Shown: positions 39,021 to 44,296, numbered from the stretch's first letter. The stretch: 64,000 nt of DNA from Halobacterium hubeiense (GCF_001488575.1 NZ_LN831302.1:2170001-2234000); one strand, 5' to 3'. Made by a program: numbers and translations. Notes: generated from the letters alone by a model not told the origin.

Positions 39021-39485
39021 ATGGCAGACTGTCCACTCGCCGACGAATGCCCCAGTTTTCAGGAGCAGATTGAAGGGATGGGGTGTCAACACTACGGCGA
39101 CCGCGGCGGGATGGAGTGGTGCAACCACTACAGCCAGCCCATCGAGGACCTGAAGACCGCGCCCGTGGTGCCCGGCGAGGAGGTCGTACTGGAGGTCGAC
39201 GACATGCACGAGAGCGGTGCCGGCGTCGGCCGGCAGGAGGAGAGCGGCTTCATCGTGATGGTCGACGGCGTGCTGCCGCCGGCCCGCGTGAAAGCCGAGA
39301 TTACGAAAGTGAAGCCGAACTACGCGCGCGCCGATCTCATCGAGAAGCTCCCTGACGAGCCCGACGATGAGAAGGGCGAAGAAGCCGAAGAAAGCGAGGG
39401 AGTAGACGAAGAAGCCGAGGAAAGCGAGGAAGCGGAAGCTGAGAGCGAGCGTCTCGGCAGCCGCGAGAACTTCTGGGGTAACTAG
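39021..39485 (+). CDS. TRAM-domain protein with N-terminal cysteine cluster
   Basis: A 154-residue protein. The N-terminus has cysteines at 4, 10, 22 and 34 (MADCPLADECPSF, GCQHYG, WCNHYSQPI), a likely zinc site. A TRAM beta-barrel RNA-binding domain occupies about residues 47-110 (GEEVVLEVDDMHESGAGVGR, VDGVLPPARVKAEITKVKPNYARADLIE). The last 45 residues are an acidic Glu/Ala tail. TRAM proteins bind tRNA or act as RNA chaperones in archaea. A gtttagcc box lies 27 nt upstream. The stop overlaps the convergent CHAT gene by 4 nt. Confidence 0.8.
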   Translation: MADCPLADECPSFQEQIEGMGCQHYGDRGGMEWCNHYSQPIEDLKTAPVVPGEEVVLEVDDMHESGAGVGRQEESGFIVMVDGVLPPARVKAEITKVKPNYARADLIEKLPDEPDDEKGEEAEESEGVDEEAEESEEAEAESERLGSRENFWGN

Positions 39486-41551
39486 CGGAACTGCTCGACC
39501 GAGAGGTCGTCGGTGAGGTGGACTTCGCCGTCGATGAGCACCGGGATACCCGAGTCCGCGAAGAACGCCTCTAGTGCTGACTGCGGGAGCGTCGTTTCTC
39601 GTACCGACGCGTCGTAGATGGCCGAGGGCGTGTCCGTGTGCGAGTACGCCGACATCCCACCGATGCCGCTCTTCGCGTGCGGGTAGTGGTGGATGGACAC
39701 TGGCCACGCTCCGGACGTCGCCTGGACAGCGTCGGTGTCGAATACGTGGAGAACGGAGATATTGGAGTGGCTCTGTCGAATGTGGCTCTGCCCGTCGCCG
39801 AGGATGGTGTACCGATCGGCCGGCGTGCCGGCGAGTTCGAGCGCGTCGAGAATCCCGTACAGCGGGAACCCCACGCCGAGGAGGGCGGCTGCCATCTCGC
39901 CGACCGACCGCGCGTCGTCGTCGGCGACGTCGTCGACCGTGACGAAGCCGCCGGCAGCGCCGGCAGTCAACAGTGCGCGGCCTTGCTCGTAGGATCGGCA
40001 GCCGTTCAGGAAGAACGCCTTCACGCCCGTCCGCGCCAGCGTTCTGGTGTCCAACGCCCCGTCCGGGCACATCATCCCCGAGTCCGTGACGTGGCCCACA
40101 AAGTGGAAGTAGTCCACGTCCTCGTACAGCGCCTCCCGTAGCTCCGCCGACGACAGGTCGTGGGACACCCGCACGTCCGTCTCCCGGTACGGGTGAGAGT
40201 CGAACAGGGAGACGTCGCCCTGCTGGAGGCGGGCGTCGTTGAACACGACGTGGACGTCGAGCGCGCCGTCGTCAGCCGACGCCGAGAGATCCCGGCGGAA
40301 CGACCCCACCGTCGGGTTCGACGCCCGGACCGCGTTCCCGGGGGCGACCCACGAGTGGCCGGGCGTCTCGGCGTCCGCCGGCACGACCAGAGAGCGCTGC
40401 GTCAGCGTTGTCGCGCTCGCGGACCGTGCGAGCGCGCCGTCCGTGGACTGGAGCGCGTTCGGGGACGGCGTGAGGTCGACCTCCGAGTCCCGGCGCGGCG
40501 GGCTCCGAACCAGCGCCAAGTTGTCGAGCAAGTGAGGGAGCGCCGGTGCGTACGCCGGGTCTGCTGCGACGTCCGCCGTGTAGTGCCAGTCGAGCAATCC
40601 TTCGGTCGCCGACCGCGACACGTCGAGGTACTCGGCCGTCCGCTCGTCCAGCGACAACTCGAACAGCCGCTCGTAATTCAGGTCCACGCGCGCCTCCAGT
40701 TCCGAGACGACGGTCGTCTGGAACGGGAAGACGCCAGCTGTCCGCACCGCGCAGTCGAGGGTGAACACGTGCTCCAGTACCGAGCGCACGCTTTCGGCGA
40801 GGGCGTCGACGCAGAGGTCGCGGCTGCGGCCGGCCGCGACGATTCGTGGCCGCGTCCCCGGCTCGATGGTGGCACCGAGGTAGTACGCCAGCGGCGCCAC
40901 CGTGTAGACGGCGCCGTACTCCGGCGGCACCTCGATTCGCACCCCGGTGTCCGGTGTCTCGACCTCGGGTGGGATATTCAGCGTATCACCTCGCTCGATG
41001 GCCGGCGGGTGCCCCCGTAGCGTCGGCCACGACCTATCTGGCGAGTGTGTCTTCAGCGCCGACCCGAACGTCGACACCGCCTGCATCAAGTCTCGTGGGT
41101 CGTCCGTCGTCGTCACTGTCCCCGCCGGCGTCTCGTGGTGCGACCGAATCCCGACGACCATCCGCGTCGCGGCCTCTATCACGAGAACTGACCGATCGCT
41201 GTCGAGGCGAGCAGTCGGCTCGGCGTCCTCGACGCGCACGTACAGCTTCGCATCGGGTGGCGAGAAGTCGACCTCGTAGGTGCCCCGCGGCAGTCGCTCG
41301 GAGGTTTCCCCGGACTCGGTGCGGTGGACGGCTTCACCGTCGCGCCAGAAAATCACGTCAGCGAACGTCGGCATCCGTAACTCGCGCGCTTCGACGGCGA
41401 CCGCCGCGTCCACGGGCATCGTGAAGCCCTCCGTCGATGCCGGCGTCGGGTCGACGGCCCGGTCCGTGTACAGTGGGAACTGCTCGCCTTCGGAGGTATC
41501 CCGTACGCGCAACCCATCTTCGTCGTCGAGCGCGTCGACGTGGACCGTCAC
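39482..41551 (-). CDS. CHAT (caspase-like) domain protein, paralogue 1
   Basis: A 689-residue protein. Residues 1-110 form a beta-rich region (RLPRGTYEVDFSPPDAKLYV), 110-330 a well-conserved central region (PPEYGAVYTVAPLAYYLGA), and the C-terminal 220 residues resemble a CHAT peptidase. A histidine (H487) in FHFVGHVTDSG and a cysteine (C518) in FFLNGCRSYEQG are spaced as in clan CD cysteine proteases. No signal peptide or membrane helix is seen. The start is GTG at 41549-41551; a TATA-like box lies 64 nt upstream. It is 86 bp behind paralogue 2 on the same strand. Cleavage activity is inferred, substrate unknown. Confidence 0.78.
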   Translation of the reverse strand: MTVHVDALDDEDGLRVRDTSEGEQFPLYTDRAVDPTPASTEGFTMPVDAAVAVEARELRMPTFADVIFWRDGEAVHRTESGETSERLPRGTYEVDFSPPDAKLYVRVEDAEPTARLDSDRSVLVIEAATRMVVGIRSHHETPAGTVTTTDDPRDLMQAVSTFGSALKTHSPDRSWPTLRGHPPAIERGDTLNIPPEVETPDTGVRIEVPPEYGAVYTVAPLAYYLGATIEPGTRPRIVAAGRSRDLCVDALAESVRSVLEHVFTLDCAVRTAGVFPFQTTVVSELEARVDLNYERLFELSLDERTAEYLDVSRSATEGLLDWHYTADVAADPAYAPALPHLLDNLALVRSPPRRDSEVDLTPSPNALQSTDGALARSASATTLTQRSLVVPADAETPGHSWVAPGNAVRASNPTVGSFRRDLSASADDGALDVHVVFNDARLQQGDVSLFDSHPYRETDVRVSHDLSSAELREALYEDVDYFHFVGHVTDSGMMCPDGALDTRTLARTGVKAFFLNGCRSYEQGRALLTAGAAGGFVTVDDVADDDARSVGEMAAALLGVGFPLYGILDALELAGTPADRYTILGDGQSHIRQSHSNISVLHVFDTDAVQATSGAWPVSIHHYPHAKSGIGGMSAYSHTDTPSAIYDASVRETTLPQSALEAFFADSGIPVLIDGEVHLTDDLSVEQFR

Positions 41552-41610
41552 GCTTCGCGGCCCCGGCCCACAGTCGCTCCCCAGACCATACTGGACTGTT
41601 GGGTGTTTCG

Positions 41611-41619
41611 ATTAAAAAC
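41611..41619 (-). promoter_or_regulatory. TATA box in front of CHAT paralogue 1
   Basis: Minus-strand gtttttaat lies in the 86-bp gap between the two CHAT genes, centred 64 nt before the GTG start. It indicates that paralogue 1 has its own promoter, with a leader of about 37 nt, rather than relying only on read-through from paralogue 2. Confidence 0.5.
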
Positions 41620-41637
41620 ATTCGGTCCGCGTGCGCC

Positions 41638-43704
41638 TCACTCGAAGTCCGCCATCGTCAAATTCGGTGTGTATCGGAGCTCGCCGTCGAGCAGTACGGG
41701 TGCCGGAGAGGCGTCGAGCAGCCGTTCGAGCTCCGAGTACGAGATTGGGTCGCGACGAACACTGCCGTCGGCGATGACTCCATCGACAGCGGTGTACGAA
41801 GGAGCGACGAACGTACCCATCCCGTTCTCGTCGTAGGGATACTGTTGGACGCTCACCGAGGCAGTGTCGGAATCAGTGTCGAAGTCGTCCGTGTCGAAGT
41901 CGTACATCGACGGAGTCCCACCTGGGTCACGACGGAAGGCGAGCGTCCCACTCCCGAGAATCGAGTAGCGCTCTGCAGGCATCCCCGCTCGGTCGAGCAC
42001 GTCCAGCACCGCGTACAGCGGGAAGCCGCTGTCCAACAGCAGCGAGATGTCGTGCCCGACCCGCCCCGCCACGTCGTCCGCCACGTCGTCGACCGTGACG
42101 ATACCCCCGACACTCCCCGCCGTCAACAACGCCCGCCCCTGCTCGTAGGACCGACACCCGTTCAAGAAGAACGCGCTTACTCCGGTCTTCGCCAGCGTCC
42201 GTGTGTCCAACGTCCCGTCCGGACACACCATCCCATCGTCGGTGACGTGCCCCACGAAGTGCAGGAAGTCCGTCTCCTCGTACAGCGCTTCCCGCAATTC
42301 CGCGGCCGTCAGCGAGTGGGACACCCGAACGTCCGTCCGGGCGATTTGGTGGGTGTCGTAGGCCGTCTCGTCACTGGCGTCCAGCCGCGCGTCGTTGTAC
42401 ACCACGTGTACGTCCAGCGGGTCGTCGCCCTGTGGCCACTCGAACCCACGCCGGAACGACCCAACCGTAGGATTTGCCGCACTCGGCGAGAACTCGTCGG
42501 CGACCCACGAACGGCCAGGAGTTTCGGTGTCCGACGGAACGACACCCGAGAGCTGCGCCAACGTGGTGTCGGCGGCCGAACGAGCGACCGCACCGTCACT
42601 CTCTCGAAGCGCATTCAGGGAGGGCGTCAGGTCGACCTGTCCGGACTGCTGTGGCGGACTCCGCACGAGCGCGAGTTCGTCCACCAAGTACGGCAACGCC
42701 GGCGCGTACGCCGAGTCTGCTGCCACGTCCGCCGTGTAGTGCCACTCCAGAATTCCCGCCGTCGCCGACCGCGCCACGTCCATGTACGCCGCCGTTCGCT
42801 CGGCGAGGGGCAGCTCGAACAGCGTCTCGTAATCCAGCGTAACTCGGTCCTCCAACTCGTCGACGGCAGTCGTTCGAAACGGGTAGACGCCTGCCATTCT
42901 GACGACGCAGTCCAACGTGAACACGTGCTCCAGAACCGACCGCACGCTCCCCGCCAAGTCGTCCGCGTCCAAGTCTACGCTCTGCCCACCCATAATCAGT
43001 CGCGGCCGATTCCCCGGTTCGACAGTGGCACCGAGATAGTACGCCAGCGGCGCCACCGTGTAGATGGCGCCGTACTCCGGCGGCACCTCGATGTGCACTC
43101 CTGTATCTGGAGGCGCAACCTGGTCGGGAATGTCGAGTTCGCTACCGTGCTCGATGGCTGGCGGGTGCCCCCGTAGCGTCGGCCACGACCTATCCGGGGA
43201 GTGCGTCTTCAGCGCCGACCCGAACGTCGACACCGCCGCCATCAAATCCCGCGGGTCGTCCGTCGTCGTCACCGTCGCTACTGGCGTCTCGTGATGGGAG
43301 CGAACGCCGACGACGACGCGACTTGCGTCGCCGAAATCCAGATAGACGTGGTCGTCGACGAACTCCGCGGTCGGCTCGGCGTCCTCCACGCGTACATAGA
43401 GTTTCGCCGCGGGCGGCGAGAAGTCGATTTCGTACGTTCCGCGCGGGAGGCGTGGTGCGTCGTTCGGTGTTGCGCGGTGAGAAACCTCGCCGTCTTGCCA
43501 GAAGACGACGACCTCGAATGACGGCGAGTGGAGTTCGCGGGCGTCGATTTCGACCGCAGTGTCGACGGGCATCGTGAACCCGTCCGTACTCGCGGGTTCG
43601 GGATTCGGTTCGCAGTCGGTACGCAGCGCTACCGCTTCACCCTCCGAGGTGTCGCGAATTCGGACTCCCGGGCCGTCGTCGAGCGCGTCGACGAGGACCG
43701 TCAC
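41638..43704 (-). CDS. CHAT (caspase-like) domain protein, paralogue 2
   Basis: A 688-residue tandem paralogue of the protein encoded just downstream, alignable over its whole length with almost no gaps. The putative dyad is H486 in LHFVGHVTDDG and C517 in FFLNGCRSYEQG. The central segment and the His-Cys region are nearly identical between the two, while residues 520-688 after the GGIVTVDDVADD block and parts of the N-terminus have diverged. GTG 43704 matches the paralogue start; GTG 43719 or 43734 are in-frame alternatives closer to the promoter. It is divergent from the Tfx regulator gene with 121 bp between. Confidence 0.78.
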   Translation of the reverse strand: MTVLVDALDDGPGVRIRDTSEGEAVALRTDCEPNPEPASTDGFTMPVDTAVEIDARELHSPSFEVVVFWQDGEVSHRATPNDAPRLPRGTYEIDFSPPAAKLYVRVEDAEPTAEFVDDHVYLDFGDASRVVVGVRSHHETPVATVTTTDDPRDLMAAVSTFGSALKTHSPDRSWPTLRGHPPAIEHGSELDIPDQVAPPDTGVHIEVPPEYGAIYTVAPLAYYLGATVEPGNRPRLIMGGQSVDLDADDLAGSVRSVLEHVFTLDCVVRMAGVYPFRTTAVDELEDRVTLDYETLFELPLAERTAAYMDVARSATAGILEWHYTADVAADSAYAPALPYLVDELALVRSPPQQSGQVDLTPSLNALRESDGAVARSAADTTLAQLSGVVPSDTETPGRSWVADEFSPSAANPTVGSFRRGFEWPQGDDPLDVHVVYNDARLDASDETAYDTHQIARTDVRVSHSLTAAELREALYEETDFLHFVGHVTDDGMVCPDGTLDTRTLAKTGVSAFFLNGCRSYEQGRALLTAGSVGGIVTVDDVADDVAGRVGHDISLLLDSGFPLYAVLDVLDRAGMPAERYSILGSGTLAFRRDPGGTPSMYDFDTDDFDTDSDTASVSVQQYPYDENGMGTFVAPSYTAVDGVIADGSVRRDPISYSELERLLDASPAPVLLDGELRYTPNLTMADFE

Positions 43705-43763
43705 AGCCTGCGACCCCACCCAGAAGCAGGCCACTCGTTCATGGTGGAGGAAGGCCGCGTTCG

Positions 43764-43803
43764 CGTAAAAGGATTCTGGGGCGCCGTCCACGGGGTTTTT
43801 GCG
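43764..43803. promoter_or_regulatory. Divergent promoter region of CHAT paralogue 2 and tfx
   Basis: Two TATA-like boxes face away from each other: cgtaaaagg (43764-43772; cctttta on the minus strand, 64 nt before GTG 43704) for the CHAT gene, and gtttttgcg (43795-43803; 28 nt before ATG 43826) for the Tfx gene. They are about 25 bp apart, close enough for one bound regulator to affect both. Confidence 0.5.
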
Positions 43804-43825
43804 TTCCGGCGGCGTCCGCGTACAC

Positions 43826-44296
43826 ATGGACGAGGGGGTTCCGGACGCCGACGAGGTGTTGGCCAGCGCCGGCTTCGACGCCACGGAGAGCGTGCTGACG
43901 CGCCGGCAGGCGGAGGTACTGGCGTTGCGCGAGCGCGGCGCCTCGCAGGCCGCCATCGCCGAGCAGCTCGGGACCTCGCGCGCGAACATCTCGAAGGTGG
44001 AGGCGAGCGCGCGGGACAACGTCGCGAAGTCCCGGGAGACGGTGGCGTTCGCGGAGGCGCTGCAGGCGCCGGTTCGCGTGGAAATCGACGCCGACACCGA
44101 CCTCTACGACGTCCCCGAGATGGTGTACGCGGCCTGCGACGAGGCGAACGTGAAGGTGTCGCTGTCCGCGCCCGAGGTGATGAAGCGCGTCAGCGACGCC
44201 GCCGGGTCGGCCGTCCGCGGCCGCGGCGTGCACGCGCCGCTGCTGGTGTCGGTGACCAGCGACGGTGACATCCAAGTGCGAGAGGGCGACGAGTAG
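43826..44296 (+). CDS. Tfx family DNA-binding protein
   Basis: A 156-residue protein with an N-terminal sigma-70 region-4-like helix-turn-helix (residues about 16-60, LTRRQAEVLALRERGASQAAIAEQLGTSRANISKVEASARDN shown here by its key pattern) and the Tfx C-terminal domain (about 75-150). Tfx was described in Methanothermobacter as a protein binding near the molybdenum formylmethanofuran dehydrogenase promoter. In haloarchaea its targets are unknown. The divergent placement next to two CHAT genes makes local control of those genes the simplest guess. ATG at 43826. Confidence 0.82.
   Translation: MDEGVPDADEVLASAGFDATESVLTRRQAEVLALRERGASQAAIAEQLGTSRANISKVEASARDNVAKSRETVAFAEALQAPVRVEIDADTDLYDVPEMVYAACDEANVKVSLSAPEVMKRVSDAAGSAVRGRGVHAPLLVSVTSDGDIQVREGDE

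Follow-up and report, generated by a model that had tools for sequence, protein, structure and literature searches.

Two adjacent genes, CHAT1 and CHAT2, on the chromosome of a 3.13-Mb Halobacterium genome (Halobacterium hubeiense) belong to a large, almost unannotated family of haloarchaeal CHAT proteins, and the C-terminal third of both products is, by structure prediction and profile comparison, a CHAT domain. The genes lie in the 64,000 nucleotides of NZ_LN831302.1:2170001-2234000, hereafter the window, in which positions are counted from the first letter. CHAT proteases are already known; the halobacterial CHAT architecture, its pairing with DUF7504 proteins and the leader arrangement described below were not found in the literature searched, mostly without subscription papers, and searches for haloarchaeal CHAT or DUF7504 found nothing. 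We computed the fold, family, dyad conservation, gene order and leader architecture of the pair, and lean towards reading the window genes as CHAT-family cysteine endopeptidases that are gated by a signal, coupled to DUF7504 in part of the family and coupled to a leader open reading frame (ORF) here.

The CHAT domain and its His-Cys dyad

The genes and their predicted catalytic positions are as follows:

41638..43704, minus strand: CHAT1, 688 residues, GTG start; N-terminal region at residues 1-420, CHAT domain at about 425-606, then a small C-terminal region
39482..41551, minus strand: CHAT2, 689 residues, GTG start; tandem paralogue of CHAT1
41887..42435, minus strand: predicted CHAT domain of CHAT1 (residues 424-606), from structure model and profile comparison
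42247..42249, minus strand: codon of CHAT1 His486 (FVGH), predicted catalytic, invariant in alignments A1 and A2, aligned with the canonical CHAT His
42154..42156, minus strand: codon of CHAT1 Cys517 (LNGC), predicted nucleophile, from alignments A1 and A2 and the profile alignment
40091..40093, minus strand: codon of CHAT2 His487, from alignment A1
39998..40000, minus strand: codon of CHAT2 Cys518, from alignment A1

The two proteins are 64% identical from end to end (689 columns), and Halobacterium sp. KA-4 carries a relative with 87% identity at the same site (L003/L032). An earlier note on this DNA had described tandem paralogues of 689 and 688 residues on one strand with FVGH and LNGC motifs, and both descriptions are accurate: the genes occupy 39482-41551 and 41638-43704 of the minus strand, and the motifs, H486/C517 in CHAT1 and H487/C518 in CHAT2, are 31 residues apart in both. 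An AlphaFold2 model of CHAT1 (predicted local distance difference test 88.5, predicted template-modelling score 0.88) matched gingipain, SAVED-CHAT, separase, DdvA and Csx29 when compared with the Protein Data Bank (PDB) by Foldseek, with E-values of about 1e-6 to 1e-3. The predicted C-terminal fold is thus of the clan CD caspase/CHAT type, and the note's assignment withstood the structural comparison that it had proposed. In a profile-profile alignment (hhalign) between residues 424-606 and 12 canonical CHATs from methanogens, the probability was 97.8% (E=8.5e-13), and H486 and C517 fell on the invariant catalytic His and Cys columns; the N-terminal region, used as a negative control, reached 0.2%. 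The latter value gives no support to the idea that the N-terminal part holds another caspase fold.

Conservation of the dyad was followed in alignments of increasing breadth. Both residues are invariant in the 23 rows of A1, selected by similarity only, and in the 85 rows of A2, a biased set, since the patterns used to search for it contained the Cys motif or an RGH motif. Across 155 full-length members the pair is kept in 133, so that the predicted His and Cys also passed the conservation check set out in the note; nearly all of the other 22 lost both residues together, although some of these rows are uncertainly aligned and three belong to a single set of overlapping loci. On a FastTree built from the N-terminal part, at least 3-4 changes are required to explain the losses. 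Full-length paralogues that retain the RSWPTxRGHPP region but no longer have either catalytic residue, frequently arranged as tandem pairs, were seen at L133 (4489-8693), L181, L193, L194-L203 and L207, and are probably pseudo-proteases of more than one origin. Among orthologues the ratio of nonsynonymous to synonymous substitution rates is 0.06-0.22 for the CHAT domain, while for residues 1-400 it is mostly 0.18-0.32: purifying selection acts on the coding frames, most strongly in the CHAT domain.

Comparison with described proteins places the pair inside a known clan and outside its known architectures. The CHAT family (PF12770, clan CD) shares the predicted fold, the FxGH and LNxC motifs and the aligned dyad, but the window proteins stay below Pfam detection and have a halobacterial N-terminal region of about 420 residues in place of TPR, SAVED and other usual partners. 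The SAVED-CHAT protease filament (8tl0) is one of the best PDB matches of the CHAT part (E 1.5e-6); the window proteins, however, have no SAVED match in Pfam or PADLOC, and among the neighbours of the pair, which are housekeeping genes, no CRISPR, CBASS (cyclic-oligonucleotide-based anti-phage signalling system) or cyclic-nucleotide gene was seen. Csx29, the TPR-CHAT protein of Craspase (8eey, 7y8t), has a similar caspase-like domain (E 4e-4 to 9e-4), whereas no TPR region was recognised here by Pfam or PADLOC and no Cas7-11 gene stands beside the pair. Separase (E 6.5e-6) and gingipain (E 9.1e-7) catalytic domains share the clan CD fold, but not detectable sequence similarity, accessory domains or biology. 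Metacaspases and other C14 peptidases would share the predicted His-Cys chemistry, but a Pfam scan of the window CHATs gave no match to PF00656, the peptidase C14 family of caspases and metacaspases. A survey of metacaspases found them in 5 of 114 archaeal genomes and did not treat CHAT (PMC3501461), and haloarchaea have been said to lack clear caspase homologues (PMC3615174).

Family spread and the DUF7504 neighbour

Relatives occur in 48 of 59 related genomes, with up to 10 copies per genome. A search of a genome collection gave 497 encoded stretches, of which 80 were kept, all haloarchaeal, and a sample of the phylum (392 genomes) gave 91 Halobacteriales genomes and four genomes of one other family; nearly 90% of the sampled Halobacteriales genomes have the family. 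Because of this wide spread and the purifying selection on the frames, the observation lies far beyond chance. The members outside Halobacteriales (L164-L167, family f25) are distant, and His and Cys are kept in three of the four and lost in one. Two Haloferax species have members (L105, L107). The genome studied here has four: the window pair, C1:1702410 and C1:1525178. A diverged paralogue in this genome, which passes the Pfam CHAT cut-off (L132, 6095-9052), sits directly upstream of the gene for a TbsP regulator. Most plasmid copies carry the annotation hypothetical; one is named caspase family protein and one CHAT domain-containing.

Copy number also varies at the site of the window pair, next to a gene for a TRAM-domain protein: L135, L136 and L254 have a single copy, the window and others have two, and L137 has three. 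In each of three sister species one copy is broken, possibly through draft-assembly error: CHAT2 has an in-frame TAG at residue 354 in G003 and a frame break near residues 514-566 in G009, and CHAT1 is fragmented in G008. The regulated pair of proteases proposed in the earlier note is not supported as a necessary unit, given one, two or three copies per Halobacterium site and the broken copies.

Clustering of the genes next to CHATs brought out one recurrent neighbour, named DUF7504 in Pfam. When scored by a model built from confirmed members, DUF7504 adjoined CHAT in 50 of 150 members examined (upstream on the same strand in 36, downstream in 11, otherwise in 3), against a chance expectation of about 1%, a rough estimate from the 13 copies in this genome. 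The adjacency label needs 16 changes on the tree versus 42 when shuffled; the pairing is therefore clade-structured but recurrent. Of 35 DUF7504-CHAT pairs, 16 have a stop-to-start distance between -4 and +30 nt, and on two Natrialbaceae plasmids the protein upstream of CHAT combines HalOD1 and DUF7504, once with a 4-bp overlap. DUF7504 aligns with KaiC (hhalign probability 73%, E 3e-5), with a P-loop that looks degenerate by eye, and one DUF7504 locus passes the PF06745 (KaiC) cut-off. It may belong with the KaiC-like signalling proteins described with HalOD1 (Galperin 2018, PMC5847659), and in two CHAT operons DUF7504 is itself fused to HalOD1; a CHAT protease as neighbour or output of such systems was, however, not found in the literature searched. 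One of the 13 DUF7504 genes of this genome (L141-L150) overlaps a gene for a receiver-GAF type protein, as expected for signalling (L145), and HalX or PAS response regulators were recurrently seen near CHATs.

A leader ORF overlapping the CHAT start

Upstream of each window CHAT lies a short ORF, a feature that, like the DUF7504 neighbour of other CHATs, the earlier note does not mention:

43701..43742, minus strand: CHAT1 leader mini-ORF, 13 codons (MNEWPASGWGRRL), its TGA overlapping the CHAT1 GTG
43766..43770, minus strand: TATA-like TTTTA box of the CHAT1 leader, 28 nt upstream of the leader ATG, TTTT conserved in 9 species
41548..41589, minus strand: CHAT2 leader mini-ORF, 13 codons (MVWGATVGRGREA), its TGA overlapping the CHAT2 GTG
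41613..41617, minus strand: TATA-like box of the CHAT2 leader, 28 nt upstream of the leader ATG

A nine-species alignment of the region upstream of CHAT1 contains few conserved blocks, two of them being the TTTT and the leader ATG. The same layout recurs in all 15 examined copies of the CHAT1/CHAT2 type: the leader ATG lies 35 or 38 nt ahead of the GTG, the ORF has 12 or 13 codons, its TGA is formed by GTG-A, and a TATA-like box stands 28-29 nt before the ATG; the pattern is missing in five copies of G002/G004. Across the family it precedes 28 of the 115 CHATs without an upstream DUF7504 and none of the 38 with one; among 1125 other genes at these loci, searched with equal freedom, it precedes 5. 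The trait needs 8 changes on the tree versus 26 when shuffled, and there are fewer independent cases than 28 because those CHATs are related to each other. Leader length is 12-17 codons, with one of 23, and Shine-Dalgarno matches of at least 5 precede 12 of the 28 leader-linked CHAT starts versus 13% of controls. A separate CHAT clade (L049, L052, L056, L068, L071, L078, L089, L091) is marked by the leader ORF too; its own conserved neighbours are DUF5779, a glyoxalase-like gene and two others that match nothing in Pfam.

Haloarchaeal transcripts are often leaderless, and the transcript 5' end is for this reason probably at the leader ATG. Each window CHAT would then be a second cistron after a leader ORF of 12-13 codons that probably starts at the 5' end, so that translation of the leader would probably be coupled to that of the CHAT, or would limit it. 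In the protein itself, the C-terminal CHAT domain would carry the catalytic His-Cys dyad, and the conserved N-terminal region would probably keep the protease off and receive a signal; where present (about a third of the family), the KaiC-like DUF7504 neighbour, sometimes fused to HalOD1, would be the probable upstream switch. From these features we infer proteolysis, its gating, the interaction with DUF7504, the role of the leader and a function in the response to stress or signals, the most likely overall role being that of a gated cysteine endopeptidase of intracellular regulation. A more specific proposal is tentative and somewhat doubtful: DUF7504/HalOD1 proteins may directly switch dedicated CHATs, and at loci that lack the partner gene translational control of the protease may pass to an out-of-frame leader ORF at the 5' end.

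Several observations weigh against a gated, leader-coupled endopeptidase. The window CHATs have no Pfam CHAT (PF12770) match at E<=10 and do not reach the gathering score; the same model matches 7 of the 23 relatives in A1 and the same-genome paralogue (25.5 vs a cut-off of 24). PDB sequence searches with a single protein and with the 85-row profile gave no match, and NCBIfam and PADLOC scans no useful one. Residues 1-398, confidently modelled on their own, have no convincing solved relative in Foldseek; the glycosidases among the matches are poor beta-sandwich hits of high root-mean-square deviation, and homology to them was not accepted. Leader peptide sequences are poorly conserved, and 87 of 153 members lack both a strict leader and a DUF7504 gene upstream. 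Finally, there is no DUF7504 beside the window pair, and because none of the 13 copies adjoins any CHAT, DUF7504 could act only in trans in this genome.

Rival functions and the TRAM-Tfx site

It is unlikely that the CHATs act as executioners in abortive infection or programmed death. CHATs of known role include CRISPR-associated Csx29 and SAVED-CHAT, which are the solved folds closest to the one modelled here, and a variable copy number, copies on plasmids and broken copies in sister species would all suit such a function. Against it stand the lack of a PADLOC model match, neighbours that are housekeeping or signalling genes, the absence of viral copies (phage records, viral contigs) and a presence in nearly 90% of sampled Halobacteriales genomes that is more like core regulation. 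No CRISPR, SAVED, TPR or pore-former neighbour was seen, which for CRISPR and pore-former genes agrees with the earlier note; its phage-response setting finds no footing in these neighbours, scans and viral records.

We think it still less probable that the His-Cys site is non-proteolytic and the proteins are signalling scaffolds or adaptors. The paralogue clade that lost both residues retains the N-terminal motif, and part of the function is therefore independent of the dyad; both residues are nevertheless kept in 133 of 155 members and in all of A1, and His and Cys change together, as expected for a catalytic pair.

The endopeptidase reading also has to be set against the regulatory arrangement that the earlier note favoured, which concerns two flanking genes:

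43826..44296, plus strand: Tfx-family regulator (TFX_C, NF003054), a synteny neighbour, not judged part of the CHAT unit
39021..39485, plus strand: TRAM-domain gene, older upstream neighbour of Tfx, convergent with CHAT2 with a 4-bp overlap

The divergent gene reported in the note, 121 bp from the CHAT1 start, is a genuine Tfx: it has a helix-turn-helix and a TFX_C domain (95.9 bits) and scores 242 bits with NF003054 against a cut-off of 239. Tfx is single-copy in most haloarchaea. The stop codons of the TRAM gene and CHAT2 overlap by 4 bp (39482-39485), as they do in L032, L033 and L034.

It is highly unlikely that Tfx controls the divergent CHAT pair as a regulated two-protease system of stress or phage response. 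The divergent order and a spacing of about 115-121 bp are kept in nine Halobacterium species, Tfx adjoins CHAT in Halospeciosus too, and both CHAT copies are under purifying selection. However, of the 11 sampled loci with no CHAT as neighbour, 10 (L121-L130; the exception is L120) have TRAM followed at short distance by Tfx on the same strand, which argues that Tfx was present before the CHATs; the CHAT-free relative G020 (L139) likewise has TRAM, then Tfx. In Halobacterium (L135, L136, the window) the CHATs lie exactly between the two, as in Halospeciosus (L038), and they stay beside TRAM in four Halarchaeum-type genomes and two of Halobacterium (G002, G004), in which the search gave no close Tfx. 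Sites with single and triple CHAT copies also speak against control by Tfx, and no Tfx operator is evident in the nine-species intergenic alignment, where only core boxes, the leader ATG and gene starts are conserved. A TTTTT box at 43796-43800, about 26-30 nt before the Tfx ATG and conserved in the nine species, is a probable Tfx promoter. The Tfx-CHAT-CHAT system of the note is thus not supported by the survey of gene order: judged by location, Tfx is a bystander of the CHATs, and the simplest reading is that a CHAT gene was inserted between the old neighbours TRAM and Tfx and then duplicated in tandem.

Least credible of all is that genes of the window type are the source of the caspase-like activity in haloarchaeal extracts: cleavage after Asp is not known to be a feature of CHATs, and archaeal proteasomes can give such activity. 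The report of the activity assigns no gene and the family has its two Haloferax species, but extracts of Pyrococcus, Sulfolobus and Methanosarcina showed it as well as Haloferax (PMC3615174), and activity outside the family's sampled range weakens the link.

If active, the proteins described here would form a widespread caspase-like protease family in haloarchaea. The recurrent DUF7504-CHAT pair supplies a definite partner that can be put to the test, and points to proteolysis as an output of KaiC-like signalling in archaea; were switching by DUF7504/HalOD1 proteins true, the haloarchaeal signalling network would have a caspase-like proteolytic output. The leader ORF, with its stop-start overlap to CHAT, would provide a clear archaeal example of control by an upstream ORF.

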